Below, piece after piece: positions 2,773 through 55,967 of a stretch of DNA of 64,000 nucleotides; position 1 is the stretch's first letter; each line of letters begins with the position of its first letter. The notes beneath the pieces are model-generated. The model ran no database searches, was not told the DNA's origin, and saw only the letters and a list, made by a program, of their open reading frames with translations. Source of the stretch: Nocardioides sp. Root240 (GTDB lineage Bacteria > Actinomycetota > Actinomycetes > Propionibacteriales > Nocardioidaceae); NCBI RefSeq assembly GCF_001428825.1, contig NZ_LMIT01000011.1:140859-204858 (forward strand), given 5' to 3'. A program made the translations under genes and the position numbers.

Positions 2773-3474
2773 GTGCGACAGGCCCTCACGACTCTTGTGT
2801 TCCTGCTGCCGCCGAGCGGACTCAAGATCCGCCTCCTCAACCGGCTCGGGCACCAGATCCACCCGACGGCCGTCATCGGCATCTGCCTGGTCCGCCGGGT
2901 CGAGCGGTTCGAGGTCGGCGAGCGGTCGCTGATCCACCACTTCAACCTGTTCCGCGACCTCCGCCTGGTCAAGCTCGGCGAGGGCTGCCGGATCATGCTG
3001 TTCAACCAGGTCGTCGGCGACTCCGGCTACGAGCCCGGCGCCGAGCAGACCGAGAACCTGCGCACGCTGCGGCTGGGCGACTTCTCGCACATCATCAGCC
3101 AGCACTACCTGGACTGCGGCGGCGGCGTGGTGCTCGGCAACGAGACCTGGGTGACCGGGATCCGCTCGACGCTGCTGTCCCACGCCTTCGACCCCACCAA
3201 CGGCGGCGTCATCCTCGACCCGGTCACGATCGGCGACCGCGCGGTCGTGGCGACGTCCTGCACGATGCTGCCCGGCACGACGATCGGCGAGGGCGCCCTC
3301 ATCGCTGCCGGGTCGACGACCTGGACCGGCCAGGAGGCCAAGGGCGGCCACCTGCACGGCGGTGTGCCGGCTCGCCGGCTCGCCGCGATCGACATCCCCG
3401 CACATGTCTACCTGCGGGCCCGTCACCCCGGGGCCACCGGTGTCGTTGCCCCTCCGAACCCCCCATCTGAGTAG
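2773..3474 (+). CDS. Hexapeptide-repeat acyltransferase (WcaF-like)
   Basis: This 233-residue protein has the left-handed beta-helix pattern of hexapeptide acyltransferases. Repeating I/V-G units run through VIGICLVRRVERFEVGERSLI and again through TIGDRAVVATSCTMLPGTTI near residues 155-175. The late H-A-F-D and T-W-S/T-like positions suit an O-acetyl or O-acyl transferase acting on glycans. It starts at GTG 2773 and is followed after 8 nt by an acyl carrier protein. An acyl-ACP donor rather than acetyl-CoA is therefore possible, but that is inference from the operon. It probably decorates the polysaccharide on the cytoplasmic side. Confidence 0.85.
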   Translation: MRQALTTLVFLLPPSGLKIRLLNRLGHQIHPTAVIGICLVRRVERFEVGERSLIHHFNLFRDLRLVKLGEGCRIMLFNQVVGDSGYEPGAEQTENLRTLRLGDFSHIISQHYLDCGGGVVLGNETWVTGIRSTLLSHAFDPTNGGVILDPVTIGDRAVVATSCTMLPGTTIGEGALIAAGSTTWTGQEAKGGHLHGGVPARRLAAIDIPAHVYLRARHPGATGVVAPPNPPSE

Positions 3475-3482
3475 AGGCTGGC

Positions 3483-3740
3483 ATGAACGAAGTTGAGACC
3501 AGGATCGTCGCGATCGTCACGGAGCTCCTCGAGCGCTCCGACCGCGAGGACCTCACCGTGACCCTCGAGTCCCGCCTGCACGGCGACGACGGCCTCGGCC
3601 TGGACTCGCTCCAGACCGCCGAGCTGTCGGCGATCCTCGAGGACGAGCTCGGCACCGACCCGTTCGGCGCCGGCCTGCTTCCCGAGACCGTCGGCGAGGT
3701 CGTGGCGTTCTACGCCGACCAGGCCGCGGCCTCCGCATGA
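3483..3740 (+). CDS. Acyl carrier protein
   Basis: This 85-residue acidic four-helix carrier protein has GLDSLQ at residues 39-44, where Ser42 should receive the 4'-phosphopantetheine arm. It starts at ATG 3483, 8 nt after the acyltransferase stop, and its stop overlaps the start of the ketoreductase (ATGA). A dedicated ACP inside a sugar-nucleotide locus implies that an acyl chain is built or carried for attachment to the glycan. No ketosynthase is visible in the window, so the chain may be loaded by the acyl-AMP ligase at 7398 or supplied by the general fatty acid pathway. Confidence 0.93.
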   Translation: MNEVETRIVAIVTELLERSDREDLTVTLESRLHGDDGLGLDSLQTAELSAILEDELGTDPFGAGLLPETVGEVVAFYADQAAASA

Positions 3741-4492
3741 GCGCACCCGAAGGTTCGGCGGCTCCCCGCACCGTCATCATCACCGGCGGCAGCCGGGGTC
3801 TCGGCGAGGGGATCGTCCAGCACTTCCTCGACGCCGGCGACCGGGTCGCCACCTGTGCTCGCAGCGAGACCGACGCCGTGCGCACCTGGCAGAAGGACCC
3901 GGCCTACGACGGCCGGTTCCTCTTCCGCGAGGTCGACCTCGCGGACCGCGAGGCCTGCACCGCGTTCGTCAAGGACGTCCTCGGTGAGTGGAAGTCGGTC
4001 GACATCCTCGTCAACAACGCCGGCGTCGCCCGCGACGGCATCCTGGCGCTGTTCTCCGACGAGGACACCGACACGGTCATCGACCTGAACCTCAAGGCGA
4101 CCATCCACCTGAGCCGCCAGATCGTCCGCAACATGCTGGCGCACGGCGGCGGCCGGATCGTGAACATCTCCTCGATCACCGGCCTGACCGGCTACCGCGG
4201 GCTCAGCGTCTACGGCGCCACCAAGGCCGCCCTCGACGGCTTCACACGCGGTCTCGCCCGCGAGGTCGGCTCGCGCAAGATCACGGTCAACAGCATCGCC
4301 TCGGGCTACCTCAAGACCGAGATGAGCCACGGCCTCGACGACGGCCAGCTGCAGCAGATCATCCGTCGTACGCCGGCGGGCCGGCTCGGCGACCCCGAGG
4401 ACATCGCGCGCGCGATCGCCTTCCTGGTCGACGAGAAGAACGACTGGATCACCGGTCAGGTGCTCGTGGTCGACGGCGGCCTCACCGCCTGA
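3737..4492 (+). CDS. SDR oxidoreductase, 3-oxoacyl-ACP reductase-like
   Basis: This 251-residue classical short-chain dehydrogenase has the cofactor motif TGGSRGLGEGI (residues 15-25), NNAG near residue 92, and the catalytic Ser...YGATK set in the segment after NISSITG. Its length and C-terminal GQVLVVDGGLTA are typical of FabG-type 3-oxoacyl-ACP reductases using NADPH. The start overlaps the ACP stop by 4 nt, so the two proteins are translationally coupled and probably work on the same acyl thioester. A sugar ketoreductase role is the main alternative. The gene ends at a strong bidirectional hairpin shared with the convergent flippase gene. Confidence 0.9.
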   Translation: MSAPEGSAAPRTVIITGGSRGLGEGIVQHFLDAGDRVATCARSETDAVRTWQKDPAYDGRFLFREVDLADREACTAFVKDVLGEWKSVDILVNNAGVARDGILALFSDEDTDTVIDLNLKATIHLSRQIVRNMLAHGGGRIVNISSITGLTGYRGLSVYGATKAALDGFTRGLAREVGSRKITVNSIASGYLKTEMSHGLDDGQLQQIIRRTPAGRLGDPEDIARAIAFLVDEKNDWITGQVLVVDGGLTA

Positions 4493-4512
4493 CCCGGACG
4501 ACAGCAGCGCCG

Positions 4513-4542
4513 CAGGCCTGACGGGCTCGCCCGTCAGGCCTG
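4513..4542. terminator. Bidirectional hairpin between convergent genes
   Basis: A perfect 14-bp stem (CAGGCCTGACGGGC paired with its complement) closes on a 2-nt spacer, so the folded loop uses the innermost bases. It overlaps the last codons of the flippase gene (stop at 4534) and follows the SDR stop at 4492. No long T-tract is present on either side, so it may act as a GC-rich actinobacterial terminator or an mRNA-end stabiliser. Confidence 0.7.
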
Positions 4543-5826
4543 TCGCGTCTCCACGCCCTGCCGGCCGCGCGCGGCGTGGCGGCCCCTGGGGGCGCGGTTG
4601 TCCCAGGCGATGGCGACCCACCAGCAGGCGGTCGAGGCCGCCGTACCGACGGCCATGGCCCACAGCGCACCCTCGGCGTCGCCGAGCGCGGCACCGGCGA
4701 CCATGCAGACGCCGATCAGCAGCAGCGCCACGATGTCGGTCACCATCGCGGTCTGGATCCGGTGCCGGCCGATCAGTGCCGCGCGCAGGCCGCTCTGGCC
4801 CGCCATCAGCAGCACCTTGCAGCTGATGGCCAGCATCAGCGGCTGGACGAGGTCCCATGCCTCGCCGAGGACCGCCCACCCGATCGGGTCGGGGAGGAAC
4901 ACCAGGACCAGCAGGTTGACCACGCCGACGGCCACGCAGATCACGATCGCCTTGCGGACGTGGCCCCACCAGGCGCCCTGGTCCTCGCGGTCGCGGGCGA
5001 TGTCGGTGGCGGCGGCGGTCGAGACGGCCAGCTGGACGGCGGTGCTGGGGGCGGCCAGCAGCGTCGCCGCCCGGTACGCCGCCACGGCGAGCGCCGAGCT
5101 GAACAACGTCATGAGCGAGGCGAAGAGCAGGGTGATGCCGCTGCTCGCGACGCCGCTGACCAGCGAGCGCCACGAGAACGACCAGTGCTCGCGCACCCAG
5201 GCGACGCCGTCGCGGTCGGGCAGGCCGTACTGCACGAAGACCCAGAGCCCGGAGATGCCCCCGGCCCAGCTCCACAGCAGCACCGGCCAGACCAGGCTGT
5301 CGAGACCCCCGGCCAGCGCGCCCCCGAAGCCGACGATCATGAGCAGGAACCACAGTCCGTCGATCACGACGGCCCGGCCCGGCTCGCGGCGCGCGATCGA
5401 GAGGTAGCGGCCGACGTCCTGGACGACCAGCAGCGGCATGGGTACGGCGAGCGCCAGCACCGGCCACGCCAGCGCACTGCCCGACAGCAGCAGTCCCGCA
5501 CCGGCCAGACCGGTGAGCACGCCAGCGGCGAGCCCGGTCACCGTGGCCGAGGCCAGGATCGTGCGCGGCCGCTCGTCGGCCTCCTCCGGGTGCACGACGA
5601 CGGTGGTCGAGATCAGGCTGCGCACGGCGACCTGGGCCACCGTGTAGACCATCACGATCAGGCTGAACCGCCCGAAGTCGACCGGGTCGAAGGCGTGCGC
5701 GACCCAGATCAGCGCGGCGATGTTCGACAGGCTGGAGAGCACCTGGTCGACCGTGATCAGGCTGAGCCGGCTCCCCGCGCCCTTCTGCCGCGGCGCCGCC
5801 TCAGTGGCCTCCTCTGTTGCGCTCAC
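4534..5826 (-). CDS. Oligosaccharide flippase (Wzx/MATE-like)
   Basis: This 430-residue integral membrane protein has about 12 hydrophobic segments spread along its whole length, beginning near residue 25 (LITVDQVLSSLSNIAALIWV). It matches the polysaccharide flippase family that moves lipid-linked oligosaccharide units across the cytoplasmic membrane. The start is GTG 5826, overlapping the stop of the upstream condensation-domain gene by 4 nt (GTGA), so the two are coupled. That coupling hints that the condensation-domain protein modifies the unit just before export. It pairs functionally with the polymerase-like gene at 22516 and the phosphoglycosyl transferase at 20980. Confidence 0.86.
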   Translation of the reverse strand: MSATEEATEAAPRQKGAGSRLSLITVDQVLSSLSNIAALIWVAHAFDPVDFGRFSLIVMVYTVAQVAVRSLISTTVVVHPEEADERPRTILASATVTGLAAGVLTGLAGAGLLLSGSALAWPVLALAVPMPLLVVQDVGRYLSIARREPGRAVVIDGLWFLLMIVGFGGALAGGLDSLVWPVLLWSWAGGISGLWVFVQYGLPDRDGVAWVREHWSFSWRSLVSGVASSGITLLFASLMTLFSSALAVAAYRAATLLAAPSTAVQLAVSTAAATDIARDREDQGAWWGHVRKAIVICVAVGVVNLLVLVFLPDPIGWAVLGEAWDLVQPLMLAISCKVLLMAGQSGLRAALIGRHRIQTAMVTDIVALLLIGVCMVAGAALGDAEGALWAMAVGTAASTACWWVAIAWDNRAPRGRHAARGRQGVETRQA

Positions 5827-7088
5827 CGGCCCGCCGCGACATCGTCCAGGAAGGCGCGGTAGGTCGCGATGAGGCCGGCCGAGCGGTCCACGTCGATGCG
5901 GTTGTCGTCGGTCGCGATGGTGTGCACGAGCCGGCCGCGGTAGCTCAGCGTCGCCACGAACACCACCTGGTTGGGGGCAGGCGCGAGCTGGCCCTGCACG
6001 AAGGTCAGCCACTCCGGGTCGGTGCCCGGGTCGATGACGCCCATGTTGCTCACGACCAGGCACGGCGGCCCGGCGCTCAACGCGGCCGCCACCAGGTTGC
6101 GCCCCGTCTCGAGGTCCTCGACCTTCTCGGTGCGGGTGAGCTGGAAGAAGAGGTCGCCCTCGCCCCGCGCGAGAGCCTCGCGGATCGTCGCGACGATCTC
6201 GCCGGAGAGCGTCCACGGGTCGGTCGGGTCCACGCGGAAGGGGCGCGCCAGCACCGCAACGGACATCGCGGTGGGGGCGTCGGGGGTCGGGCTGGGCGTC
6301 GACAGGTCGGCGGGTACGGCGAGCTGCACCGTCGCGCGCCCGTCGCCGCCCGGCGCGTCGGCGTCGCACAGCTCGCGCGCCACGATGCCGAGCCACGCCG
6401 CGGCCACGGTCGAGAATGCGCTCGATCGGTGCGCCCGACCGGCGGCCAGGAAGGCTGCCGCGGGCTCCGGCTCGAGGACCAGCTGCTGCAGCCGCGGCCG
6501 CGCCGGCACGGAGGTCTCCGGCCACCACTCCGGTCCGGGGGTCCCGAGCTCGAGGTTGCGCGCGCGGATCGTGCGCAGCAGCTCGAACATCGCCGTACGG
6601 TCCTGCTGCCACGCGTGGGCGTCCTCCACGGGCGGCGGCGGGGTCGACAGCTCCTGCTGCTCGGGGATGTCCTGGCCGTCGAGCAGGCGCACCAGCCACT
6701 GGACCTCGCCGAGGCCGATCCGGCCGTCGAGCAGCGCGTGGTGACCGAGCAGGATCAGCCGCGAGCGCCCCTCCTCGCGGCTGCACAGGTGGAGGAGCCT
6801 GGGCGCGAGGCCGAGCTCGTGGCGAACGGTGGCCTCCTCGTCGAACACCTGGTCCCAGGCGTCCGTGGGCAGCTCACGCGTCGTGAGGTGGCCGGGCGCG
6901 ACGCCCGGGTCGGCGAGGGTGAGGTCGTCGGTGGCGACCGCGCGGCCGAGGATCCGGCGGGCACGGAACTCGTCCCACACGGCGGCGACGGTCTCGTGCT
7001 CGAAGCAGCGCGCGAGGTCCGCGGAGATCATCACGTTGCTCGGCCACTGGTGGTCGAGGAAGGTGTAGTACTTCTCCGGGGTCGTCAT
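5823..7088 (-). CDS. Condensation-domain acyltransferase (PapA/C-domain-like)
   Basis: This stand-alone 421-residue protein has the condensation/PapA/WES superfamily signature HHALLDG (His116-Gly122), the HHxxxDG active site that deprotonates an acceptor hydroxyl or amine and accepts an acyl thioester. The late VSNMGVIDPG segment corresponds to the second structural motif region of the fold. In mycobacteria such proteins esterify glycolipids, so this protein could O-acylate the locus glycan with chains from the ACP at 3483. It starts at ATG 7088; no clear ribosome site is seen, and a GTG 12 nt upstream is an alternative. Coupled by 4 nt to the flippase gene. Confidence 0.85.
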   Translation of the reverse strand: MTTPEKYYTFLDHQWPSNVMISADLARCFEHETVAAVWDEFRARRILGRAVATDDLTLADPGVAPGHLTTRELPTDAWDQVFDEEATVRHELGLAPRLLHLCSREEGRSRLILLGHHALLDGRIGLGEVQWLVRLLDGQDIPEQQELSTPPPPVEDAHAWQQDRTAMFELLRTIRARNLELGTPGPEWWPETSVPARPRLQQLVLEPEPAAAFLAAGRAHRSSAFSTVAAAWLGIVARELCDADAPGGDGRATVQLAVPADLSTPSPTPDAPTAMSVAVLARPFRVDPTDPWTLSGEIVATIREALARGEGDLFFQLTRTEKVEDLETGRNLVAAALSAGPPCLVVSNMGVIDPGTDPEWLTFVQGQLAPAPNQVVFVATLSYRGRLVHTIATDDNRIDVDRSAGLIATYRAFLDDVAAGR

Positions 7089-7397
7089 CGGACGGTGCAC
7101 GCCCACGTCAGTGGTCACCCCCGGACATTGTTCGAGGGTGGCCCGTGCTCCGGGTGCGTGCCCGGCAAGGCGGCGGAGCGAAGTCGTACTCGTTCGTCCA
7201 ACGAGCGACGCCAACGCCGCCGGGTGCGTGCCCGGGGTGCGGGACACGCGAACAAGGTCCGGGGGTGGCCACTCACTGCTCCTCTTCGTAACCCGGTGCA
7301 GAACGCACCGGCTCCCTTTCCAACGCTCGCGACGGGCGAGCGTCACGATCCTCCCACCCGTCGCGGTGCCTTGCTCGTGCTCGGCCATACTGGCGCC
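7089..7397. other. 309-bp divergent intergenic region
   Basis: This gap lies between the starts of the condensation-domain gene and the acyl-AMP ligase. More than half of it (7110-7273) is the long inverted-repeat element described separately. The remaining 124 bp before ATG 7398 must hold the ligase promoter; CATACT at 7386-7391 is a weak -10 candidate. No coding signal was found. Confidence 0.7.
7110..7273. repeat. 164-bp imperfect inverted-repeat element, copy A1
   Basis: The two ends are imperfect inverted repeats: AGTGGTCACCCCCGGAC at the left and its near complement at the right, followed inward by GTGCGTGCCCGG-type arms. A homologous element lies at 62113-62294, with similar arms and a partly similar centre containing CAACGCCG. 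Its size, terminal symmetry and dispersed copies fit a MITE-like or large BIME-like element. No open frame is conserved between the copies. Confidence 0.7.
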
Positions 7398-8774
7398 ATG
7401 ATCCGCCTGCTCGAACGAGCCGCCGCCGCAGTGCCGGACCAGCCGGCCGTGGTCACCACCGAGGCCACCACGTCGTACGCCGGCCTGCTGGCCGCCGCGC
7501 GCACGGTCGGCGCCGCCCTGCGCGAGAGCGGCATCGACCGCTTCGCGGTGGTCGAGCCGGACGCCGGCCGGGTGCTCGCCCTGCTCGCCGGCGCCGCGCT
7601 CGTCGGCGCCGAGCCCTGCCAGTACCAGCCCGACATCGACGCCACGCAGTTCCGCGAGCAGGCCGCCGCACTGGGCCACACCGTCGTCGTCTCCCGCCGC
7701 GACGACCTCGCGGGCGAGGGCCTCGTCGTCGTACGGCCGGACGAGCTGACCTCCGACTCCCCCGTCACGGACTCCGGCGACGACGGCGAGCAGCCGATCC
7801 TGATCCGCACCACCGGCACGACGGGCCTGCCCAAGGCGGCCCGCCACGACTGGTCCGTGCTGGCCCGCACCGCACGCGACACCAGGGCCCGTCCCGGGCA
7901 GCGCTGGTTGCTCGCCTACGGCCCGCAGCAGTTCGCCGGCATCCAGGTGCTCCAGCACGTGATGGCGATCCAGGGCACCCTCGTCGCACCCTTCCCGCGC
8001 CAGCCCCGCGACGGCCTCGAGGCGTTGCTGACCCAGCAGCTCGACTGCGTCAGCGCGACGCCGACGTACTGGCGCTTCCTGCTCGCCGAGGCGCGCAGCC
8101 GCGGCGTCGCCCTGCCGCCGCTCGCACAGGTGACGCTCGGCGGGGAGGCCAGCTCCCCCGACCTGCTCACCGACCTCCGCGCCGCGCTGCCGGGCGCCCG
8201 GATCTCGCAGGTCTACGCCTCGACCGAGTTCGGTTCGATCGCCTCCGTGGGCGACGGCCGCCCCGGCCTGTCCGTCGCGAGCCTGTGGAGCGAGGAGAAC
8301 CCCGACGGCCTGCTGCGGGTGGTCGACGGCCAGCTCTGGGTGCGCGCCGGCACCGGCATGAGCGGGTACGCCGGCGACCGGTCCGACACGCCCGTCGAGG
8401 AGGACGGGTGGGTCCCCACCGGCGACCTCGCAGAGGTCGTCGAGGACCGCGTCCTCTTCCGCGGCCGCAACTCCGAGGTCATCAACGTCGGCGGCGTGAA
8501 GGTCCACCCGCTGCCCGTCGAGGAGCGGATCAGCGCGCTGCCCCAGGTCTCGATGGCCCGGGTCTTCGGTCGTCCCAACCGCCTGACCGGTGCGATCGTC
8601 GCCGTCGAGATCGTCCCGACCGGCGACCCGGAGGCCGTCGACACCAGCGACCTGCGCCGCGCCGTCAAGGAGGCGGTCGCCGACCTGCCCAGCGCCTGGC
8701 ACCCCCGCAGCGTCTCCGTCGTGACCGATCTCGAGACCCGCGGGGCGAAGACCGTCCGCGGGATGGTCGAGTAG
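7398..8774 (+). CDS. Acyl-AMP ligase (ANL superfamily)
   Basis: This 458-residue adenylate-forming enzyme should activate a carboxylic acid with ATP and load it on CoA or an ACP. The P-loop is RTTGTTGLPK (residues 136-145), followed by YASTEFGS for substrate/adenylate binding, TGDLAEV, and the hinge region FRGRNSEVINVGGVKV. The C-terminal subdomain keeps a lysine in GAKTVRG. It is shorter than acyl-CoA synthetases (usually above 500), as in loading ligases for carrier proteins. With the ACP (3483), ketoreductase (3737) and condensation-domain protein (5823) it forms a plausible acylation pathway for the glycan. Substrate chain length is unknown. Confidence 0.88.
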   Translation: MIRLLERAAAAVPDQPAVVTTEATTSYAGLLAAARTVGAALRESGIDRFAVVEPDAGRVLALLAGAALVGAEPCQYQPDIDATQFREQAAALGHTVVVSRRDDLAGEGLVVVRPDELTSDSPVTDSGDDGEQPILIRTTGTTGLPKAARHDWSVLARTARDTRARPGQRWLLAYGPQQFAGIQVLQHVMAIQGTLVAPFPRQPRDGLEALLTQQLDCVSATPTYWRFLLAEARSRGVALPPLAQVTLGGEASSPDLLTDLRAALPGARISQVYASTEFGSIASVGDGRPGLSVASLWSEENPDGLLRVVDGQLWVRAGTGMSGYAGDRSDTPVEEDGWVPTGDLAEVVEDRVLFRGRNSEVINVGGVKVHPLPVEERISALPQVSMARVFGRPNRLTGAIVAVEIVPTGDPEAVDTSDLRRAVKEAVADLPSAWHPRSVSVVTDLETRGAKTVRGMVE

Positions 8775-8887: not shown

Positions 8888-9847
8888 TTGCCGTCTGACT
8901 TCGCCTACAGCTCCCTGCGCCGACTGGCGTCCGCGCCCGGTGCGCGCCACGTGATCCAGCGGATGCGCGGTGAGCAGGACGAGATCCGGCTGGCCATCGG
9001 TCGCCTCGAGAGCCACCTCCTCGACGTCCGGAAGCCGAGCCGGCTCGAGGACGCCGAGTTCAAGGTGTTCTCCCAGTTCGGCGAGGACGGCATCATCCAG
9101 CACCTCGTGCGCAGCGTGGCGCCCGCCGAGACCACCTTCGTCGAGATCGGCACCGGCGACTACCGCGAGTCCAACACCCGCTTCCTGCTGCAGAACAACA
9201 ACTGGCGCGGCGTGGTGATCGACGGCGGGGAGGCGCACGTCCAGTTCGTGACGGGCACCGAGATGGCGTGGCGCTACGACGTCGAGCCGGTGTCGGCGTT
9301 CGTGACGAAGGAGAACGTCAACGCCCTCATCAGCGACAACGGGCTGCGCGGGCCGATCGGGCTGCTGTCCGTCGACGTCGACGGCATCGACTACTGGCTG
9401 TGGGACGCGATCGACGTGGTGGAGCCGGCCATCGTCGTCTCCGAGTACAACGCCCTCTGGGGCCCGGACGCGACCATCACGGTCCCCTACGACCCGTCGT
9501 TCGTGAACGTCGAGGCGCACTACTCGATGCTCTACTTCGGCGCCTCGCTCGGGGCACTCGTGCACCTCGCCGGCAAGAAGGGCTATCGCTTCGTGGGCTG
9601 CGCGAGCAACGGCGCCAACGCCTTCTTCGTCCGCGAGGACCTCGCCGGGGACCTGCCGGCGCACACGGCCCGGTCCGGCTTCCGCGAGGCCCACTTCCTC
9701 ACCGGGCGCAACCCCGACCGCACCCTGTCGCGCGAGCGCAGCATCGCCAAGCGCCTCGCCCTGATCGGGCAGCAGCCGGTCATCGACGTCACGACGGGAC
9801 AGGAGACCACCGTCGCGGCAGCCGTCGGCGCCCGGGGCGTCGAGTGA
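8888..9847 (+). CDS. FkbM-like methyltransferase-fold protein
   Basis: This 319-residue protein has a Rossmann methyltransferase core. EIGTGDYRESNTRFLL near residue 88 replaces the classical motif I, NNWRGVVIDG follows, and LLSVDVDGIDYWLW forms the next strand. These features resemble FkbM-type methyltransferases found in polysaccharide loci, though the family is often annotated as hypothetical. TTG at 8888 is selected because GGAGG (8879-8883) lies 4 nt upstream. Its stop overlaps the GTG of the following SGNH gene by 4 nt, so the two are co-translated. An O-methylation role on a sugar is likely but not proven. Confidence 0.75.
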   Translation: MPSDFAYSSLRRLASAPGARHVIQRMRGEQDEIRLAIGRLESHLLDVRKPSRLEDAEFKVFSQFGEDGIIQHLVRSVAPAETTFVEIGTGDYRESNTRFLLQNNNWRGVVIDGGEAHVQFVTGTEMAWRYDVEPVSAFVTKENVNALISDNGLRGPIGLLSVDVDGIDYWLWDAIDVVEPAIVVSEYNALWGPDATITVPYDPSFVNVEAHYSMLYFGASLGALVHLAGKKGYRFVGCASNGANAFFVREDLAGDLPAHTARSGFREAHFLTGRNPDRTLSRERSIAKRLALIGQQPVIDVTTGQETTVAAAVGARGVE

Positions 9848-10572
9848 GGCACCGCCTCCGGGTCCTCCGGGCCCACGCCCTGGCGTGGGTCGGGCTGCTG
9901 CGCCTGGCCGTCGCGATCGCGCGCGGCCGGGTCGACCAGGTCTGGGTCGGCGACTCCCACGCCGCCTACTTCGTGGCCGACCATTTCCCGCCGATGGTCG
10001 TGGGCAGCACCGCCGAGCGGCGCTGGGTGTGGCACCTCGGCCCGCGGCTGATGTTCTCGATCGCCCGTGACGGCTTCAAGCCCGAGATGCACCGCGCCCT
10101 CCGCATGCTCGGTCGCGTGCCCCACAGCCGCGAGGTGACGTGGGTCTTCAGCTTCGGCGAGATCGACAACCGCTGCCACCTCGCGCCACGGGTCGCCGAC
10201 GGCCTCGACCTCGACTTCGTCGCCGCCTACGTCGACCGGATCCGCGGCGCCGTCACGGACCTGGGGGCCCCGAGCGGGCTGGTGCTGTTCCCGCCGCCGC
10301 CGGCGCTCGAGGACTTCGTCCACGAGTCCTTCCCGGTCCGCGGCACCAACGAGGAGCGGCTGGTCACGCACCGGATGCTGCGCGCGCGGCTGGCCGACGA
10401 GATCAGCGCGCCCGCCTCCGGGCCGCGGTTGGTCGCGCTCGACCTCACCGACGACCTGTCCGACCCGCAGGGCTGGTTCGACACCGCGCTGCACTTCGAC
10501 GGCGTGCACGCCAACGACGCGGGCCGGGCGCTCGCCCAGACCCGCCTGCACGAGCTCCTCGCGCAGGCCTGA
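9844..10572 (+). CDS. SGNH/GDSL-like hydrolase
   Basis: This 242-residue protein carries a block-I-like GDSHAAY near residue 37, giving the nucleophile Ser, and a C-terminal block-V-like DGVHAND that provides Asp and His of a catalytic triad. Such proteins in glycan loci act as O-acetyl or O-acyl esterases or, less often, transferases. No clear signal peptide is present, although the first 25 residues are hydrophobic and basic (VLRAHALAWVGLLRLAVAI) and might anchor it. It starts at GTG 9844 inside the stop of the preceding gene. It could trim or exchange the acyl groups added by other proteins of the locus. Confidence 0.72.
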   Translation: MRHRLRVLRAHALAWVGLLRLAVAIARGRVDQVWVGDSHAAYFVADHFPPMVVGSTAERRWVWHLGPRLMFSIARDGFKPEMHRALRMLGRVPHSREVTWVFSFGEIDNRCHLAPRVADGLDLDFVAAYVDRIRGAVTDLGAPSGLVLFPPPPALEDFVHESFPVRGTNEERLVTHRMLRARLADEISAPASGPRLVALDLTDDLSDPQGWFDTALHFDGVHANDAGRALAQTRLHELLAQA

Positions 10573-10841: not shown

Positions 10842-11735
10842 TCAGAGCGTGCCCGGCACCAGCTTCTCGATCGCCGCCCGGCCGTCCTCGTCGTCGACGT
10901 GCACGACGGCCACGTCCCAGTAGGCCCGGCCCCGGGTGCGCTGGTTGGCCGGCGCGTCCAGCACCGCTGCTCCGTGCGCGCCGGCGTCGGCGGTCGTCGT
11001 ACGACCGATCGGGGTGGCCCCGTTGTCCCACACCGCGACGTCGCGGTAGCCGAGCGCCTCGAGCCGGCTCCACACACTGAGCGGGTCGTGCCCGGCGATG
11101 CGGGTGAGGTACGGGTCGTACTCGAAGAACAGCACCGGCTTGGTGTCGGCCCACGCCTCGGCGACGGCCGGGACCAGCTCGACGTCGTAGCCGTCGGTGT
11201 CGGACTTGACCAGGCGCAGCTGGTCGAAGTCCGGGTGGTCGGCGCGCAGTTTGGCCGGCGAGACCATCGGCATCGCGTCCGCGTCGCCGCCCTCGGCGAA
11301 GCGGGTCGTGCCGCCCGTGCGGACGGCGGTGCGCGCAGCCTGCGCGTCGTCGACCGACAGCAGCGCCTCGACGACCGCGACCCGGTCGTCGCGGTCGACG
11401 TTGCGGTGCAGGAACTCGAGGTACGCCGGGTCGGCCTCGATGCAGAGCACCTTGCCGTCGGCGGCGTTGAGGATCTGCACCGTCGAGTCGCCGACGTTGG
11501 CTCCGATGTCGAGGACCGTCAGCGGCGAGCTCTCCGCCAGCAGCCGGGCCAGCTCGACCAGGTTCTGGCCGTACGCCGGACCCCAGAGCGCGTAGTCGGG
11601 GAGCCGGTGCGACCACGGCAGCACCAGGGTCACACCCTGGACCTCGCGGACGACGGGCCGGAACGGGAACTGGTCGCGGATCAGCCAGCCCAGCCGCCGC
11701 TTCGCGATCGAGGCAATGTCAGCCGGTCGCATCAT
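10842..11735 (-). CDS. FkbM family methyltransferase
   Basis: This 297-residue SAM-dependent methyltransferase has motif [13 protein letters not shown] (near residue 74) and the acidic [12 protein letters not shown] segment after the next strand, both hallmarks of the FkbM family. It carries the usual C-terminal strand-rich region with [12 protein letters not shown]. Family members methylate hydroxyls of sugars or polyketides. It starts at ATG 11735; the upstream gmd stop overlaps this start (ATGATG), so it is the second gene of a gmd-fkbM operon. A methyl group on a GDP-mannose-derived deoxysugar is the simplest inference. Confidence 0.85.
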
Positions 11736-12727
11736 CCACCGATTTCCTTCTTGTGCTGGACCAGGCGGCCGAGGTGCTCGATGTCGGAGTCGACCATCAG
11801 CTCGGCCAGGCCCTTGGCGTGGGTCTGCGCGCGCCAGCCGAGGACGTCGCGCGCCTTGGAGGCGTCACCGATGAGCGCGTCGACCTCGGTCGGGCGCTCG
11901 TAGGACTTGTCGTAGCGGACGTGGTCCTCCCAGTTGAGCCCCGCGTGGGAGAAGGCGTACTCGCAGAACTCGCGGACCGTCGTACCGACCTCGGTGGCCA
12001 GCACGAAGTCCTGGGGCTCGTCGTGCTGCAGCATCCGCCACATGCCCTCGACGTACTCGGGGGCGTAGCCCCAGTCGCGGACGGCCTCGAGGTTGCCGAG
12101 GTCGAGGTGGTCGGCGATGCCGAGCTTGATGGAGGCGACGCCCAGGGTGATCTTGCGGGTCACGAAGCTCTCGCCGCGGCGGGGCGACTCGTGGTTGAAG
12201 AGGATGCCGGAGACGGCGAAGAGGTCGTAGGCCTCGCGGTAGTTGACCGTCACCCAGTGGGAGTAGAGCTTCGCGGCGCCGTACGGCGAGCGCGGGTAGA
12301 ACATCGTCGACTCGTTCTGCGGGGGCGGGGTCGCGCCGAACATCTCGGACGTCGACGCCTGGTAGAACCGGCAGTCGATGCCGGCCGCGCGGATCGCCTC
12401 GAGCAGCCGCAGCGTGCCCACGGCGTCGGTCGACGCGGTGTACTCGGGGAGCTCGAAGGACACCTTCACGTGGCTCTGCGCGCCGAGGTTGTAGACCTCG
12501 TGGGGGGTGATGTCACGGATCTGGTTGCTCAGGCTGACGCCGTCCGTGAGGTCTCCGTAGTGGAGGTGGAGGTCGGCCGACTCGTTGAGGTGATCGATCC
12601 GGCTCCGGTTCAGGGTGGAGGAACGACGGACGAGTCCGTGGACCTCGTACCCCTTCGAGAGCAGGAGTTCAGCGAGGTAGGAGCCGTCCTGACCGGTGAT
12701 TCCGGTGATGAGCGCACGCTTGGTCAC
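11732..12727 (-). CDS. gmd: GDP-mannose 4,6-dehydratase
   Basis: This 331-residue extended SDR converts GDP-D-mannose to GDP-4-keto-6-deoxy-mannose. The NADP-binding motif is [12 protein letters not shown] (residues 9-20). [14 protein letters not shown] is the GMD-specific NADP loop, [11 protein letters not shown] follows, and the catalytic Tyr/Lys lie in [27 protein letters not shown] completes the GMD signature. It starts at ATG 12727 and is divergent from a glycosyltransferase only 24 bp away. The product feeds rhamnose-, fucose- or perosamine-type sugars. A second, more divergent homologue lies at 17568. Confidence 0.96.
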
Positions 12728-20841: not shown

Positions 20842-20979
20842 GAGGCATTGCCTCGAACGTTTCGATGTAACACGTATCTCTTTCTGAACTCGCTCGTTGG
20901 CTTGCATGTGCGGGTGCCCCCATCCCGCATCGCGGCGACCGGATATCTCGGGCTGGTCATCGACAGGAGGTTTGCAGCT

Positions 20980-21684
20980 TTGCGCAAGCGCGTTTTCGAC
21001 GTCGTCGTCATCTGCCTCGCTGCCGTCGTCTGGGTCCCTGTGGTGACCCTCTCGGCTGCGGCCGTCCTCATCTTCTCCGGACGCCCGATCTTCTACCGCT
21101 CCCGGCGGTGGGTCGGCCCCGGCACCATCATCGAGATGGTGAAGCTGAGGGTGATGGTCCGCGACGCCAACAAGGTGGTCGCCCCGGTCGACGCCGGCCG
21201 GTTCCTGAACACCCCGCCCGACTCGCCCCTCTACACCGGTGTCGGTCGGATCCTCGACCGCCTCGGCCTCAACGAGATCCCCCAGTTCGTCCACGTCCTG
21301 CGTGGCGACATGACCATCGTCGGCGCCCGCCCCCTGACCGAGATGGTCCGCGAGGCGCTCGTCGAGCTCCACCCCGACCTCGACACCCGGTGGGAGACTC
21401 CCGCCGGCCTCACCGGCCTGCCGCAGCTGATCGGCCGGCACGGGGTCACCGACCAGCAGCGACTCGAGCTCGAGGCGGCCTACTCGCACCGCGCCGCGAC
21501 CCGGCCCAGCGTGATCCTCGACTTCCGGATCCTGCTGTCCACGGTCCTGATCACCTTCGGGCTCAAGAAGCCGATGACCTACGACAAGGCCATGGCCATG
21601 GCGATCGGCCGGCCGGCCCGTCGTACCGTCCAGGTCCCCGACCTCAGCACCGGCTACTACGGTGCCGAGGCGGACGTCGCCTGA
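20980..21684 (+). CDS. Phosphoglycosyl transferase (bacterial sugar transferase)
   Basis: This 234-residue monotopic enzyme starts glycan assembly by moving a sugar-1-phosphate from a nucleotide sugar to undecaprenyl phosphate. The single N-terminal membrane helix is VVVICLAAVVWVPVVTLSAA, followed by RPIFYRSRRWV, EMVKLRVM, and the family signature LGLNEIPQFVHVLRGDM then VGARPL. The start is TTG 20980, because AGGAGG (20965-20970) lies 9 nt upstream; the longer open frame from 20848 has no ribosome site. The preceding 138 bp are notably less GC-rich and probably hold a promoter. Confidence 0.88.
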   Translation: MRKRVFDVVVICLAAVVWVPVVTLSAAAVLIFSGRPIFYRSRRWVGPGTIIEMVKLRVMVRDANKVVAPVDAGRFLNTPPDSPLYTGVGRILDRLGLNEIPQFVHVLRGDMTIVGARPLTEMVREALVELHPDLDTRWETPAGLTGLPQLIGRHGVTDQQRLELEAAYSHRAATRPSVILDFRILLSTVLITFGLKKPMTYDKAMAMAIGRPARRTVQVPDLSTGYYGAEADVA

Positions 21685-22515: not shown

Positions 22516-23895
22516 TTACCCAATCACAGGACGCGGTGCGGATGCCGCCCCGGTGTCCGTCACGTCCGGCTCGGCGGCCTCGTCGCCGTCCTCCCGGCCG
22601 CCGGAGCCGGCGCGCACGGCGAGCAGGATCGCGGGCGCCATCGGCACCCACAGCGTGTGGTCCTCGAGTGCCGGGAACGTCGGCGTGATCGCGATGAACG
22701 CCCACACGGCGTACCCGATGCGACGGTTCGGGTGGTTGCCGATGATCGGGCGCGCGAGCGTGAAGAGCACGAGGAGGTAGCCGAGCAGCCCGACGATGCC
22801 GATGCTCGCCGCGACCGCCAGCAACACGTTGTGGGCGTAGATCGAGTCGGCGAATCCGTTGCCCAGGATCGGGTGCTGGAGGAAGAGGTCGACACCGAAC
22901 TTCTGGGCCTCGGTGCGGGCCTTGTCGGCGCCGAGTGCGTCGGCCGAACCGGCGAGCCGGGTGATCGCGGAGCCCTCGCCCGACTGGCCGACGATGTAGG
23001 GCAGGGAGAAGACGAAGAGGGCGCCGCCGATGGCGAGCAGGAATCCCTTGAAGGCCGACCGCTCGACGAACGGGACCATCAGGATCAGGCCGGCGAGCAC
23101 CGCGACGCCGGCCCGGCTGCCGCTGATGACGACCGACCCGGCGGACGCGGCGGCGAAGCCGGCCACCATGACGCGGTACCAGACCGCGTCGTTGCGACGC
23201 CACAGGTACATCAGCACCGCGAAGGCCATCACGCCCGCGCCGCCGAACTCGTTCGGGTGGTTGGCCATGCCCTGGTTGCGGTTGCCGACCGCGCCGCCGA
23301 CGGGGGCGTAGGCCAGGCTGACCATCTGCCCGGCGACGTAGCACCAGAGCAGGATGTCGATGGTCCGCCAGCTCGGCGCCCACAGCGCGAGCAGGCCCAG
23401 GAGCCCGACGATCATGACCAGCCACTGGGCGAACTGGACCGCGCTGATGAACGGCGCCGGCGAGAAGACCGTCGACAGGGTGCCGGTCACCAGGATCAGC
23501 GAGATGCCGATGATGTAGGTCAGCGGCAGGTTCAGCGAGCGGCGCATCAGGGTCGGGACCAGCAGCAGCACGGCCAGCGCGAACACCAGGTCCGTCGGCG
23601 AGATCGGGCTCTCGGCACCGCCGGGCGAGATCACGCCCTTGTACATCGGCGAGGTCGCGAAGGCCAGCATCATGGCGGCCATGGCGACCCGCTCACGACC
23701 GAGGACGGCCAGCGCGACGACACCCCCGGCGACCATCAGCGCCAGCGCCGCGGCGATCGGGCCGCGCGAGGAGGCGGCGACCAGCGCGATCGTCAGGCCC
23801 CACAGGCCCACGGTCACCAGGCGCCGCTCGACGACACCCGTGGTCTCCTGACCGGTCGACGAGCTCATCGCGGGCGCGACACTCTGGTTCGACAC
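22516..23895 (-). CDS. O-antigen polymerase/ligase family membrane protein
   Basis: This 459-residue protein has about 12 membrane segments starting near residue 30 and a large extracytoplasmic loop. It ends in the O-antigen ligase/polymerase signature HPILGNGFADSIYAHNVLL near residue 365, where the His is usually essential. It should polymerise or ligate lipid-linked glycan units outside the membrane. GTG 23895 is preceded by AAGGAG 4 nt upstream. The Asp/Glu-rich C-terminal tail (REDGDEAAEPDVTDTG) is probably disordered and cytoplasmic. With the flippase (4534) and phosphoglycosyl transferase (20980) it completes a Wzx/Wzy-type route. Confidence 0.86.
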   Translation of the reverse strand: MSNQSVAPAMSSSTGQETTGVVERRLVTVGLWGLTIALVAASSRGPIAAALALMVAGGVVALAVLGRERVAMAAMMLAFATSPMYKGVISPGGAESPISPTDLVFALAVLLLVPTLMRRSLNLPLTYIIGISLILVTGTLSTVFSPAPFISAVQFAQWLVMIVGLLGLLALWAPSWRTIDILLWCYVAGQMVSLAYAPVGGAVGNRNQGMANHPNEFGGAGVMAFAVLMYLWRRNDAVWYRVMVAGFAAASAGSVVISGSRAGVAVLAGLILMVPFVERSAFKGFLLAIGGALFVFSLPYIVGQSGEGSAITRLAGSADALGADKARTEAQKFGVDLFLQHPILGNGFADSIYAHNVLLAVAASIGIVGLLGYLLVLFTLARPIIGNHPNRRIGYAVWAFIAITPTFPALEDHTLWVPMAPAILLAVRAGSGGREDGDEAAEPDVTDTGAASAPRPVIG

Positions 23896-27683: not shown

Positions 27684-32152
<4,469 letters not shown>

Positions 32153-32171
<19 letters not shown>

Positions 32172-32785
32172 GCACCGACCCGGCTCCGGATCTCGCGGCC
32201 CTGCAGGCCGAGCGGGACGCCTACGCCCGCCGTGCGGCCGCCGCGGAGGCGCAGCTCGCCGGCCTCACCAACGAGCTCGACGCCGCGCGCGCCCGGATCG
32301 CCGCTCTCGAGGCGGCGCCGGTCGTCGACAGCGGGCACCTGTCCCTGTTCGACGGTACGACGGACGACCGGCTCACCGGCGACGGCAGCGACCCCCGCGT
32401 GCTGTCCATGGTCCTCGGCGCCACCGCGGTGGTCTCCGGCATGGTGGCGCTCCTCGCACTGCTCAACGGCAAGCTCGGCACGCCCTTCGGCTTCGGGATG
32501 GTCGTGCTCACCCTCGGCCTCGCGTGGGGCGCCGCCCGCACCAAGGTCGTGCCCGTGGAGGTCAGCGTGGTGCGCGGGATGGTCTACGTGCAGCAGGGCG
32601 AGTCGTCGTACCGCTTCGACCTCCGCAAGCCCGAGACGTCGGTCGACATGGTCGGCCAGCCGGGCGACTCCGGGTGGGCGGTCCACTTCGGACGCCGCGG
32701 CCTTGACCCGTTCGTGGTCGACGGCTCGATGGTCGACGCTGCCGAGTTCGTCCGCCAGATGCGCGAATACCGCGCCGACCTCTGA
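32153..32785 (+). CDS. Membrane protein sharing the C-terminal beta module
   Basis: This 210-residue protein is a short version of the upstream giant. A coiled coil (residues about 13-60, [20 protein letters not shown]) is followed by two membrane helices near residues 85-105 and 112-128. Then comes a beta-rich module with [34 protein letters not shown], and the closing [20 protein letters not shown] 32153 lies inside the 3' end of the upstream gene (19-nt overlap in another frame), so the pair is translationally coupled and probably forms one membrane complex. No catalytic motif is seen. A perfect 42-bp palindrome follows 15 bp after its stop. Confidence 0.85.
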
Positions 32786-49849: not shown

Positions 49850-51118
49850 TCAGACGGCCGCGAGACCGGGGCCGTCGTTCCGACGTGATTCCGAAAGGGC
49901 AGCTGAAAGCGGCCCGTTGAGGGCAGCGCCGACGCTGCCGAGCTGGTCCTCGAAGTGGTGGCTGTAGACCTTCGCCGTGATCGCCGGGTCAGCGTGCCCG
50001 ACCATGTTCGCGATCTGCGCCAGCGAGACGCCCGCCTCGACGGCGAGGCTGACGGCCGTGTGCCTCAGCTCGTGGATGACGAGGTCCGGTTTGCCGATCG
50101 ATGCCGCGGCCGGCTTCCAGTACCGGCGCCGGAAGTTGCTCGGCCGCAGGTCGTCGCCGCGCGGGCTAGTGAAGACGCGGTCGCCCGGCTTCCTCCCCTT
50201 CGCGACGTCGCGGAGCTCCGGCACCAGGTCCGGGGGCAGGGGCACCACCCGGGTGCGGCCGGACTTGGGCGTGCCCTCGATGAGTCGTCCGTTGATGTCG
50301 GACAGCGTCGCGCGGACGGTCACGGCCGGCGCCCGGGCACCGGCTTCGAGGCGGTCCAGGTCGAGGTCCCGCACTCGCAGCGCGGAGACCTCGCCGAGGC
50401 GGAGTCCCGTGAAGCCCAGCAACCGGACCATAGTCCGGTACGCCGGATTCTCGGCACCCTGTGCGACAGCGACCGCATCGGCGAGCTCGAGGACTTGGGC
50501 TGCGGTGATCGCCGCCCTCGTCGACCTCGCGCGCTCGGCGGGCAGGCGCGCGCCCTTTGCCGGGTTGATCCGTAGGCGGTCATCGTGCACAGCGTGATCG
50601 AGCACCAAGCTGAGCACTCGGTGTGCCTGTCTGATCCTTGACGCCGACACGCCGTCGGCCGACAGCTGCGAGGCCCACTTGGAGATCGCTCCCGTGCGGA
50701 TCGCCGACACGGGGCGGCCGCCGAAGGTGGGCTCGACGAGCAAGCGCCACAAGTCGGCGTACCCGGCGATGGTGGACGGCTTCAGCGGCCGCCCGGAGGC
50801 GCCTCGGACCTGCCACTGCGGCCACCATTCGGCATGGACGTCTGCAAGCTTCACGTTGGCCCGGTCGGGCCGGATCCACTCCCCGTTGTCGTGGGCCGTC
50901 TTCTGGTGCCGAAGCCAACGCTGCGCGTCACCGACCGTGGCGAAGGTCTTCGACTGCTCCTTCGCGTGCGGGGGCTTCCAGCGGGCGAGGTACCGGTTCG
51001 GGTCGGGCGAGCCGGCTGGGCCGGTGTGGCCGTAGCGGGCAGAGCGGTCTCCGCTCGCTTTGTACCAGCGGTCGGTGATCCCTTCGGCGACCCTGGCGAC
51101 CTGCTTCTTCCTGGTCAT
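49850..51118 (-). CDS. int: Tyrosine integrase
   Basis: This 422-residue site-specific recombinase integrates the element at tRNA-Lys. An N-terminal arm-binding region ([13 protein letters not shown]-like AP2 type) is followed by a core-binding domain (residues about 90-195). The catalytic domain has Arg in [20 protein letters not shown], His in [12 protein letters not shown] and the nucleophile Tyr in VYSHHF. All catalytic residues seem intact. ATG 51118 overlaps the stop of the small upstream gene by 4 nt (ATGA). Its stop is 60 bp from attL. Confidence 0.96.
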
Positions 51119-51276
51119 TGCCGCTGGTCCTGTTCGCGCTTCTCCCTCGCCAGGCGGTCGCGCTGGCCGACCTCGAGGATGAGCCGGGTGACGCGGGCCT
51201 GTTCGCAGCTGATCGGCGGCAGGTCGACGGACTCGTCTTCGACCAGGGCTCGGATGCGGGCGACGCTGAGCGCCAT
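51115..51276 (-). CDS. Small protein coupled to the integrase
   Basis: This 53-residue, highly charged protein reads MALSVARIRALVEDESVDLP and ends [11 protein letters not shown]-like, mostly helical. ATG 51276 has GAGGTGG 6 nt upstream, and its stop overlaps the integrase start. Small proteins in this place often modulate recombination direction, but this one has no recognisable HTH, so its function is open. Confidence 0.7.
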   Translation of the reverse strand: MALSVARIRALVEDESVDLPPISCEQARVTRLILEVGQRDRLAREKREQDQRQ

Positions 51277-51277
51277 G

Positions 51278-51571
51278 TCAGGCCACCTCTCCGGCCACCG
51301 CGGCGGCATCCCGGCAGATCGGGTAGATCTGCTCGGCGATCCAGCCCACCTCCATGACATCGTCAGCCAACTGCGGGCTGAGCTTCTCGAGGAGGTGGGT
51401 CGCGACGGCCCAGGCCAGGTCCCAGATCTCGTCTCCGCTGTCGTCGGCAGGGTCGGGTGTCCCTGCGATGACGCCGACGATCCTGCGAGCCGTGTCGGTG
51501 GTGAGGGGCGGATAGCCGGCGGTGCTGGCCAGGTGCTGGATGCGGTCCAGGTCGAGCGTCATGGCGGTCAT
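51278..51571 (-). CDS. Unknown 97-residue element protein
   Basis: This acidic protein of 97 residues begins MTAMTLDLDRIQHLASTAGY and contains DEIWDLAWAVATHLLEKL. ATG 51571 follows AAGGAG with 6-nt spacing, which sets the start although the frame is open 249 bp further upstream. It is the first gene of a three-gene unit ending in the integrase. I recognise no family. Confidence 0.72.
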   Translation of the reverse strand: MTAMTLDLDRIQHLASTAGYPPLTTDTARRIVGVIAGTPDPADDSGDEIWDLAWAVATHLLEKLSPQLADDVMEVGWIAEQIYPICRDAAAVAGEVA

Positions 51572-51820
51572 CGAGTGCTCCTTTGAGCTGGGATCCGTAT
51601 ACCCCGGGTGGGTATGACGTTGATCACAACCTAGGGATCGGACTTGCCCCACGCAAGAGGTGATTCCGCATGTCGTCACCTCCCCGATACGGACCTCGAA
51701 CAGGACGGGCAGAGGAGTTGTTGCGCGACCGGCTGGAAGCGCCTCAGCGAGGCTGTGGAGCGTCGTACGACGCGCTGCGACCAGGGAGAGGTCGCTGGCG
51801 CGGGCGATGCTCTCGGTCAC
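51572..51820 (-). pseudogene. Probable truncated tail-gene start after the tape measure
   Basis: The tape-measure stop at 51817 overlaps a GTG at 51820 (GTGA), the same coupling used throughout this operon. The frame opened there reads VTESIARASDLSLVAARRTT and on to LPVLFEVRIGEVTTCGI, a protein-like run of about 50 codons. It then becomes atypical and runs in frame into the next gene, whose own ribosome site lies inside. I read this as the remaining 5' end of a deleted downstream tail gene. A genuine fused 180-residue protein is the alternative. Confidence 0.45.
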
Positions 51821-54564: not shown

Positions 54565-55141
54565 CGCCGCTCACCTCCTCGGTCGTCGTCGTACGGCCCG
54601 GGGGCCGGCCGACGGTCAGTTGGGACGACTCGTTGAGGTTTCGGCACACCATGAACAGGCGCCCTGCGTCGCCGCGGGTGCCGGCATTGACGATGTCGGT
54701 CGCCTGGTCGACGGTCAGGGGCTTCACCGAACAGCTGGCGACCAGGGCCGGGAAGAACGTCTCCGGGTTGAAGACCATCCCGAGCTTGGCCTGGTCGTCA
54801 GTCGGGGGATGTGCGCGCTGGAGGGCGTCGTACCGGTCCGGCCGCATCGCGCGGAGGTGGAACTCGATCGCGAGGTCGGCGGCAGCGGCGGTCTTCTCGT
54901 CGACCACCGCCTGGGCGGCCACTACGTTCGGGTGTTCGTCGACCGGCACGTCGTCGTCAGTGTGGCGGGCCGCAACCTCACGACGGATCCGGGTGAGTTG
55001 GACGCGGGCAGCTGCGACGGCCTGGACCGCTGCCCGGTCGTGCAGGGTGATCCACTCCTCGGGCAGCGGCCGGTTGGCGAGCCGCTCGATGGCGGCGGCC
55101 CAGACGGCTGGCTCCGTCGTGTCGTTCGTCTGCGCGGTCAT
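54557..55141 (-). CDS. Tail assembly chaperone-like protein
   Basis: This 194-residue protein lies directly before the tape-measure gene, the usual place of tail chaperones. Its C-terminal half, LAIEFHLRAMRPDRYDALQ then GMVFNPETFFPALVASC, resembles such chaperones in actinophages. ATG 55141 overlaps the upstream stop by one nucleotide. No slippery sequence for a frameshifted longer form was identified. Assignment rests on position and general resemblance. Confidence 0.6.
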   Translation of the reverse strand: MTAQTNDTTEPAVWAAAIERLANRPLPEEWITLHDRAAVQAVAAARVQLTRIRREVAARHTDDDVPVDEHPNVVAAQAVVDEKTAAAADLAIEFHLRAMRPDRYDALQRAHPPTDDQAKLGMVFNPETFFPALVASCSVKPLTVDQATDIVNAGTRGDAGRLFMVCRNLNESSQLTVGRPPGRTTTTEEVSGDE

Positions 55142-55965
55142 CAGCGGGCACCCAACCGAGGCCTGCGGCGCGGGTTGTCGTCGATCCGCTGTTGGAGGAG
55201 GCCTTCCGTGACGTCCTGCAGTTCGCTGGGCAGCGCTTCCAGGCTGTCCGACTCATCGCGGCGCCGATCGCGGACCACCCTGTCACTGGCGCCGACTGGC
55301 TCGCCGGGCACGTTGGCCGGGATCGGGTTCGGGTCGACCGCGGCGGCCGGCTCCTCCACCGACTCGCCGAAAGCCGGCTCCGCGGAGGAACCGCGGCCGC
55401 GGCGTGCTGCCCGCTCGACAGCAGCGTCCACCTCGCGACGAGCGGCGTCGAACGGCACCATCAACTCCTCGGCCTCAGCGAGGGCTTGCTGGGCCTGGGC
55501 TCGCTTGACGTGCGTCTTGCGTGCCTTCCGGCGGATGTGGTCCCGCCAGTCGTCGGCACGTTCACGCAGGAGGTGCCGCTCTACGGCCTCGAGGATCACG
55601 TGGTAGCCCGTGAAGAAGTCCACTGCGTGCTCGAGCCCCTGCCACTCCTCCAGCTCGGGGCGCGGCGGCGCCTCTAGTCCCTGCAAGGTCGCGGCGGCGA
55701 GGTCTCGCCGGTGCTGCGCGATCCGCTCCCGGTTACGAGCATCCATCGAAGCCGCGGCCTCGCCGTTCTGCTGCTCGGACTCGATGAGCCGCTGGCGCAC
55801 CCTGTGCAGCTCTGCGAACTCCGGGGCGTCGGACAGCACGTCCGGAACCGGGGAGCCCTGGCGGTGTCCCGGCTGGATACCCGGGATCTTCCGCCAGGCG
55901 TCCCACTGTTCGAGGGTGAGCACGCCGTCCTCGATCTCCTGGCCGGCGATCTTGATCTTCTTCAT
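55141..55965 (-). CDS. Unknown helical protein of the element
   Basis: This 274-residue protein starts MKKIKIAGQEIEDGVLTLEQ and is largely helical and charged, with a coiled-coil-like centre (LHRVRQRLIESEQQNGEAA) and a disordered Pro/Arg-rich tail. In a complete phage this slot between terminase and tail genes would hold head or scaffold genes, but no homology is evident to me. ATG 55965 has CTGACG upstream without a strong ribosome site; it starts 3 nt after the previous stop. Confidence 0.75.
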   Translation of the reverse strand: MKKIKIAGQEIEDGVLTLEQWDAWRKIPGIQPGHRQGSPVPDVLSDAPEFAELHRVRQRLIESEQQNGEAAASMDARNRERIAQHRRDLAAATLQGLEAPPRPELEEWQGLEHAVDFFTGYHVILEAVERHLLRERADDWRDHIRRKARKTHVKRAQAQQALAEAEELMVPFDAARREVDAAVERAARRGRGSSAEPAFGESVEEPAAAVDPNPIPANVPGEPVGASDRVVRDRRRDESDSLEALPSELQDVTEGLLQQRIDDNPRRRPRLGAR

Positions 55966-55967
55966 CG

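Follow-up and report, generated by a model that had tools for sequence, protein, structure and literature searches.

Positions 2773-8774 of a 64,000-nucleotide stretch of the Nocardioides sp. Root240 genome (contig NZ_LMIT01000011.1; the whole stretch is hereafter the window, in whose coordinates features are given) hold a conserved gene set for the activation and transfer of acyl groups, embedded in a locus for polysaccharide export. The set consists of a hexapeptide-repeat acyltransferase, a stand-alone acyl carrier protein (ACP), a FabG-like reductase (KR), a Wzx-like flippase, a PapA-like HxxxDG protein (C-protein) and an acyl ligase. Across homologous cassettes (loci are numbered L, genomes G), the C-protein is exchanged for a methyltransferase. 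We consider it moderately probable, taking the model as a whole, that the locus directs the synthesis of a surface polysaccharide which contains a GDP-6-deoxyhexose, bears sulfate and methyl groups and receives its O-acyl groups in the cytosol, ahead of Wzx/Wzy export. The ligase would activate a free acid and load it onto the dedicated ACP, the KR would turn the keto group of the ACP-bound acid into a hydroxyl, and the hexapeptide transferase would attach the resulting hydroxyacyl group to a hydroxyl on the sugar. The C-protein, an optional tailoring acyltransferase, would work with an SGNH-like protein to esterify a hydroxyl on either the acyl group or the sugar; in relatives, the methyltransferase encoded in the same slot would act on this hydroxyl instead. 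The substrates, the order of the steps, the assignment of enzymes to hydroxyls and the polymer itself we infer from the genes.

Exchange of the C-protein and a methyltransferase

Gene identities, linkage, active-site motifs, the exclusive swap, the link between C-protein and SGNH-like protein, and the absence of any clear sugar aminotransferase were all computed here. For the swap, 45 ligase loci were read for companion genes. The ACP-ligase-KR core is retained in nearly all of them, accompanied by the C-protein in 16, by an S-adenosylmethionine-dependent methyltransferase of the RebM/MitM kind in 22, by neither in 7 and by both in none (Fisher p about 5e-7, related genomes not being independent). 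Mapped onto the tree of the ligases, the C-protein label needs four changes, at least three of which are forced by well-supported branches. In whole-genome searches the methyltransferase was absent from 15 C-protein genomes and present in all three methyltransferase genomes tested. L031 and L092 have equal gene order, with identities of 84% for the ligase, 87% for the KR, 70% for the ACP and 67% for the hexapeptide enzyme; the slot between KR and ligase is occupied by the C-protein gene in L031 and by the methyltransferase gene in L092, and this is the sole exchanged gene.

The SGNH-like protein (9844-10572, + strand; GDSH...DGVH; PF13472 at 20.6 bits, under the cutoff) occurs in all 7 C-protein genomes that were tested, as against 2 of 19 others, and it tracks the C-protein even from another contig (G140, G300). 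As far as we found, the alternation and the SGNH link are new.

Two further arrangements were observed among the loci. L068, L076, L078 and L084 represent a third variant with neither C-protein nor methyltransferase, the slot being filled by a second gene of hexapeptide type, which lies on the opposite strand and encodes 220-225 aa. L074 (7216-12520) carries two ACP genes, one by a hexapeptide gene and the other by KR, methyltransferase and ligase.

Genes and conservation of the cassette

Profile scans and reading of the sequence placed all six genes at the coordinates that had been proposed for them, and assigned each to a recognisable family, with active-site motifs intact in the enzymes and the ACP. 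The original prediction of genuine acylation genes interleaved with sugar genes is thereby upheld, the more so as the set is conserved in relatives.

The hexapeptide-repeat (left-handed beta-helix) acyltransferase is WcaF/Vat-like (2773-3474, + strand; PF00132 at 29.6 bits, cutoff 27) and scores 34 bits against the NCBIfam WcaF family, far under that family's cutoff. Its His137 is invariant in an alignment of 14, in the context THAFDP or SHAFDP; its AlphaFold model was poor (predicted local distance difference test score, pLDDT, 59) and was excluded from the fold search. The ACP (3483-3740, + strand; PF00550 at 21.6 bits, cutoff 20.8) carries its serine in GLDSLQTAEL, and the DSL serine is kept in 14 of 14 aligned rows. 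Overlapping the ACP gene by 4 bp, the KR gene (3737-4492, + strand; PF13561 at 197.8 bits) encodes a FabG-like 3-oxoacyl-ACP reductase of the short-chain dehydrogenase/reductase (SDR) type with YGATK and NNAG motifs, which matches TIGR01830 with an E-value of 5.7e-68, under the equivalog cutoff. The NNAG and YxxxK motifs are present in 42 of 42 homologues by regular-expression count, a procedure that undercounts homologues of both ACP and KR, partly through strict patterns or truncated gene calls.

On the - strand follow the Wzx-like polysaccharide flippase (4534-5826; PF13440 at 20.4 bits, just under the cutoff of 23), homologues of which also occur in the type-A loci, and the condensation-fold C-protein (5823-7088; HHALLDG; PF16911 PapA_C at 42.8 bits, cutoff 30). 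The divergent intergenic region between C-protein and ligase, read from the sequence, spans 7089-7397, and a sigma-70 promoter scan of it returned zero matches.

The ligase is a class I adenylate-forming (AMP-dependent) acyl ligase of 458 aa (7398-8774, + strand; PF00501 at 79.7 bits, PF13193 at 29.6 bits) that retains TTGTTGLPK, YASTE, TGD, FRGR and the C-terminal KTVRG lysine. Its start was placed by the MIxLLxRAA-like N-terminus common to relatives; the start at 5817 in the list of open reading frames marks a mere long open frame. Against the exosortase-A-associated ligase family TIGR03098 it scores 60.1 bits and does not reach the family cutoff of 592. It is likely an ACP-loading enzyme.

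A search of 200 genomes of the genus with the C-protein yielded 15 genomes, including the source genome, and homologues of the set are clustered in 13 other Nocardioides genomes of the sample; in 10 relatives the content of the neighbourhood is near-identical to the window. In L030, L031 and L032, the hexapeptide, ACP, KR, C-protein and ligase genes form, in this order, a contiguous operon on one strand, with the last four separated or overlapping by a few bases only. The recurrence in 13 genomes and the single operon in these three loci argue that the set was not assembled by chance. G140 has a hexapeptide-ACP-KR-ligase operon with the C-protein about 22 kb off on the same contig, and SGNH, FkbM-like and Wzx genes together on a separate contig. 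We had considered G140 as a case of a C-protein without cassette and dismissed this when a direct search placed the ligase on the same contig. In G300, a member of a different genus of the family found via the ligase, one contig carries the C-protein, ACP, ligase and KR genes in this order; those for the hexapeptide enzyme, the SGNH-like protein and the sulfotransferase are located on another. The ligase search hit 44 of 250 genomes of the family, in three genera and nearly always alongside ACP and KR, and in a 397-genome sample of the phylum it retrieved the source genome alone, so the close form of the ligase is limited to the family. A strict peptide-pattern scan of contigs matched one relative; the nearest named relative found is Nocardioides sp. 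SLBN-35.

This distribution bears on the explanation that the genes belong to an independent pathway for a lipid or a secondary metabolite, or include a catabolic ligase, and came to lie in the glycan locus fortuitously. On other plasmids, related ligase-SDR sets (two including an ACP) do adjoin a type I polyketide synthase (PKS) or a halogenase, but the glycan context is conserved family-wide: 31 of 46 loci hold at least two homologues of the window's glycan genes, and in 11 dissimilar loci the flanks are dominated by FkbM, glycosyltransferase and flippase genes. Moreover, no ketosynthase/PKS domain was found among the scanned proteins of the window's glycan locus, which also yielded no thioesterase or MBOAT domain. 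We regard this explanation as highly improbable. Its catabolic version, an alternative raised by the original prediction itself, is disfavoured by a ligase nearly always joined to an ACP and KR of its own.

Proposed assignment of the transfer steps

The C-protein is PapA-like by its PapA_C domain and HxxxDG motif, as had been proposed, and ester formation is its predicted activity. The motif is present in 16 of 16 homologues, and His117, Asp121 and Gly122 are invariant in 15 aligned rows. With the AlphaFold model (pLDDT 85.7), Foldseek ranked AzeD of P. aeruginosa (8s6l) first, with a template-modelling (TM) score of 0.77, compared to 0.63 for PapA5, to which the C-protein is 16-17% identical in the structural match. 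A profile search gave the same two proteins with E-values of 6.5e-13 and 1.3e-6, respectively. The 8s6l record is titled as a dehydratase, while its molecule name is that of a PapA transferase. A viral fold library was uninformative.

The original prediction had described a hybrid of PapA-type acylation and polysaccharide export, in which the C-protein joins the chain built on the ACP to lipid-linked sugar immediately before it is flipped; on this view, the hexapeptide enzyme would do something else, e.g. acetylation. The acylation set within an export locus is borne out, while the C-protein as the attaching device is not: we judge that role fairly unlikely. For it speak the PF16911 membership, the HxxxDG motif and the coupling to the flippase gene, whose GTG start is overlapped by the C-protein stop by 4 bp (GTGA) in the window, as it is in L019 and L020, and by 1 bp in L021 and L022. 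The coupling, also part of the prediction, holds in this sub-clade and fails outside it. In L023-L028 the ligase sits between C-protein and flippase, in L030-L032 the two genes are kilobases apart, and in G140 the C-protein is distant from the cassette altogether. The overlap is a local, sub-clade arrangement and lends no support to a mechanistic coupling. The C-protein is missing from 29 of the 45 homologous cassettes, with the methyltransferase in its stead in 22. As the ACP-ligase-KR core is kept without it, the C-protein is not the general chain-to-sugar step.

The C-protein genomes read and most of the methyltransferase loci contain a hexapeptide transferase, albeit of different sequence classes, and the order hexapeptide-ACP-ligase-SDR recurs on alphaproteobacterial plasmids beside a glycosyltransferase gene or DegT genes. 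Given this recurrence and the dispensability of the C-protein, we ascribe the main transfer step to the hexapeptide enzyme, which is the better candidate for moving the chain to the sugar. The C-protein would be a swappable tailoring acyltransferase paired with the SGNH-like protein.

Several observations weigh against the favoured model. No recognisable hexapeptide gene lies within about 10 kb in the methyltransferase loci L085, L086, L087 and L091, and the enzyme may thus not be the universal transferase. The nearest solved relatives of the methyltransferase are sugar O-methyltransferases and natural-product methyltransferases, among others, so the hydroxyl addressed from the shared slot may be one of a sugar instead of the acyl chain. 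Finally, the C-protein's nearest solved relative carries a dehydratase title, which would imply another chemistry.

This last point leads to a further explanation, in which the C-protein is a condensation-fold dehydratase that converts the beta-hydroxyacyl-ACP made by the KR to enoyl-ACP, the hexapeptide enzyme transfers the product, and the methyltransferase of other strains gives the same intermediate a different modification. That 8s6l tops both the fold and the profile matches, that the C-protein stands with a KR and an ACP, and that condensation domains are known which dehydrate yet keep an HHxxxDG-type motif (PMC10880069) count in its favour. It is set back by the molecule name in the 8s6l record itself, by a PapA_C score above the cutoff and by the SGNH partner, which hints at ester chemistry, and we consider it unlikely.

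Under the favoured model, with the hexapeptide enzyme as main transferase, the FabG-like KR suggests, on the analogy of N-(3-hydroxybutyryl) viosamine, that a hydroxyacyl group is transferred. A more specific possibility, which we put forward tentatively and with some doubt, is an exchangeable capping: the hydroxyl of the hydroxyacyl-ACP formed by ACP, ligase and KR would be capped either by methylation or by C-protein and SGNH-like protein, in the latter case to an acyloxyacyl group or short oligoester.

Glycan locus and comparison with known systems

The glycan locus spans about 0.5-24 kb of the window and also holds glycosyltransferases and enzymes of the GDP-mannose 4,6-dehydratase type. 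Upstream of the cassette lie a putative sugar O-methyltransferase (572-1618, + strand; TIGR04371 at 48.1 bits, cutoff 44) and a sulfotransferase (1661-2722, - strand; PF13469 at 78.7 bits), copies of which, at 49-81% identity, occur in 12 of 13 relatives bearing the full set. This conservation suggests a sulfated glycan in these actinobacteria. Across type-A loci, the sulfotransferase is kept with the cassette in most (L019-L028, L031, L032, L073, L083), more weakly in L074. Downstream, a protein whose likeness to FkbM is a reading of the sequence (8951-9847, + strand; no Pfam hit) is encoded by a gene that overlaps the SGNH gene by 4 bp and adjoins it in many relatives. It is followed by a GDP-mannose 4,6-dehydratase (11732-12727, - strand; PF16363, E-value 3.4e-130) and by two hallmarks of a Wzx/Wzy locus, both above cutoff: an initiating sugar-phosphate transferase (20848-21684, + strand; PF02397 at 117.9 bits) and a Wzy-like polymerase or O-antigen ligase (22516-23895, - strand; PF04932 at 34.6 bits, cutoff 31.7).

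Elsewhere in the window, three proteins (27684-32171, 32153-32785, 62854-64002) have in common a C-terminal domain of ~110 aa, with two hydrophobic segments and then a domain ending in VDAxxFxxxLxxxRPDL or similar; their N-terminal parts are very different and a useful Pfam match is absent. The first of them is a low-complexity, EP/A-rich protein of 1495 aa in a stretch of 78% GC. A prophage or phage-derived island at about 49850-56800 includes an integrase (49850-51118) and a tape-measure-like protein (51817-54564).

The trio of ACP, KR and ligase in glycan islands is already known from the group II flagellin glycosylation islands of Aeromonas, where ACP, 3-oxoacyl-ACP reductase and AMP-dependent synthetase (orf1-3) stand amid glycosyltransferases and the authors propose a lipid-bearing sugar (PMC7874193); our comparison, drawn from passages of that paper, is by kind of gene. 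The Aeromonas islands differ in belonging to a Gram-negative organism, in serving a flagellin glycan and in having pse genes, luxE and luxC, and those passages mention no PapA-like protein. Partners of the luxE/luxC families were absent among the scanned glycan-locus proteins of the window.

We also found the trio in Azospirillum and Haematobacter. Homologous sets in the order ACP-ligase-SDR occur on an Azospirillum brasilense plasmid (L102) and in Qingshengfaniella (L104) and Haematobacter (L105), the latter two with a hexapeptide gene in front; compared to the window, the ligases are 35-42% identical over matched stretches and the SDRs 40-48%. None of the three loci has an annotated C-protein, and Azospirillum differs further by a 3-ketoacyl-ACP synthase III (KAS III) and a hydrolase, the ACP-ligase-SDR-KAS III set lying beside pseI and flagellin on its plasmids. 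On plasmids of Bradyrhizobium (L107, 6707-14828) and Burkholderia (L108, 6605-14795), a ligase-SDR-ACP trio runs into a type I PKS gene, annotated in L108 as an SDR protein, and on a Rhizobium plasmid (L106, 5919-12281) an SDR and a related ligase lie by a CmlS-like halogenase in a small natural-product-like cluster.

The Pseudomonas viosamine island (vioA, M, T, S, B, R, acp) resembles the cassette in having ACP, KR, acyltransferase and methyltransferase and in acylating and methylating a sugar before its transfer (PMC3927599); mass spectrometry demonstrated that vioR is required for N-(3-hydroxybutyryl) viosamine (PMC3927599). It differs by a KAS III (vioS) in place of the ligase, by N-acylation of an amino sugar and by the absence of a PapA-like protein (PMC3927599); no KAS III was found among the scanned glycan-locus proteins of the window. 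For the window, N-acylation in this style is very unlikely. ACP, KR and acyltransferase are the same in kind, and the Haematobacter relative lies near a DegT gene; yet the window holds no DegT aminotransferase (PF01041), the rest of the genome gives partial matches with E-values of 1.7e-7 or weaker, and the local sugar genes are of GDP-mannose dehydratase types. Because the genome has no clear sugar aminotransferase, we consider O-acylation the likelier.

With PapA5 and its relatives the C-protein shares the PapA_C domain above cutoff, the HxxxDG motif and the condensation fold, while it differs from PapA acyltransferases by its place in a Wzx/Wzy-type locus without a PKS. The dlt operon is similar in its adenylating ligase, carrier protein and nearby SGNH-type protein, and dissimilar in that DltB (MBOAT) was not found among the scanned glycan-locus proteins and in that KR and hexapeptide enzyme are present here. 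Literature searches on Nocardioides glycans, PapA5 with exopolysaccharide, glycopeptidolipid serovar 16 and exosortase ligases returned nothing on point.

If the model is true, Nocardioidaceae would make acylated, probably sulfated glycans, of which we found no description in the literature searched, and a PapA-like enzyme of lipid-type ester chemistry would have been recruited into polysaccharide decoration, where it and a methyltransferase replace each other in a cassette that is constant in other respects. Exchangeable capping would give a sulfated actinobacterial polysaccharide whose acyl side groups differ from strain to strain. L031 and L092, as closely related operons, would constitute a natural experiment: their surface glycans could show what the exchange of a single gene does chemically.

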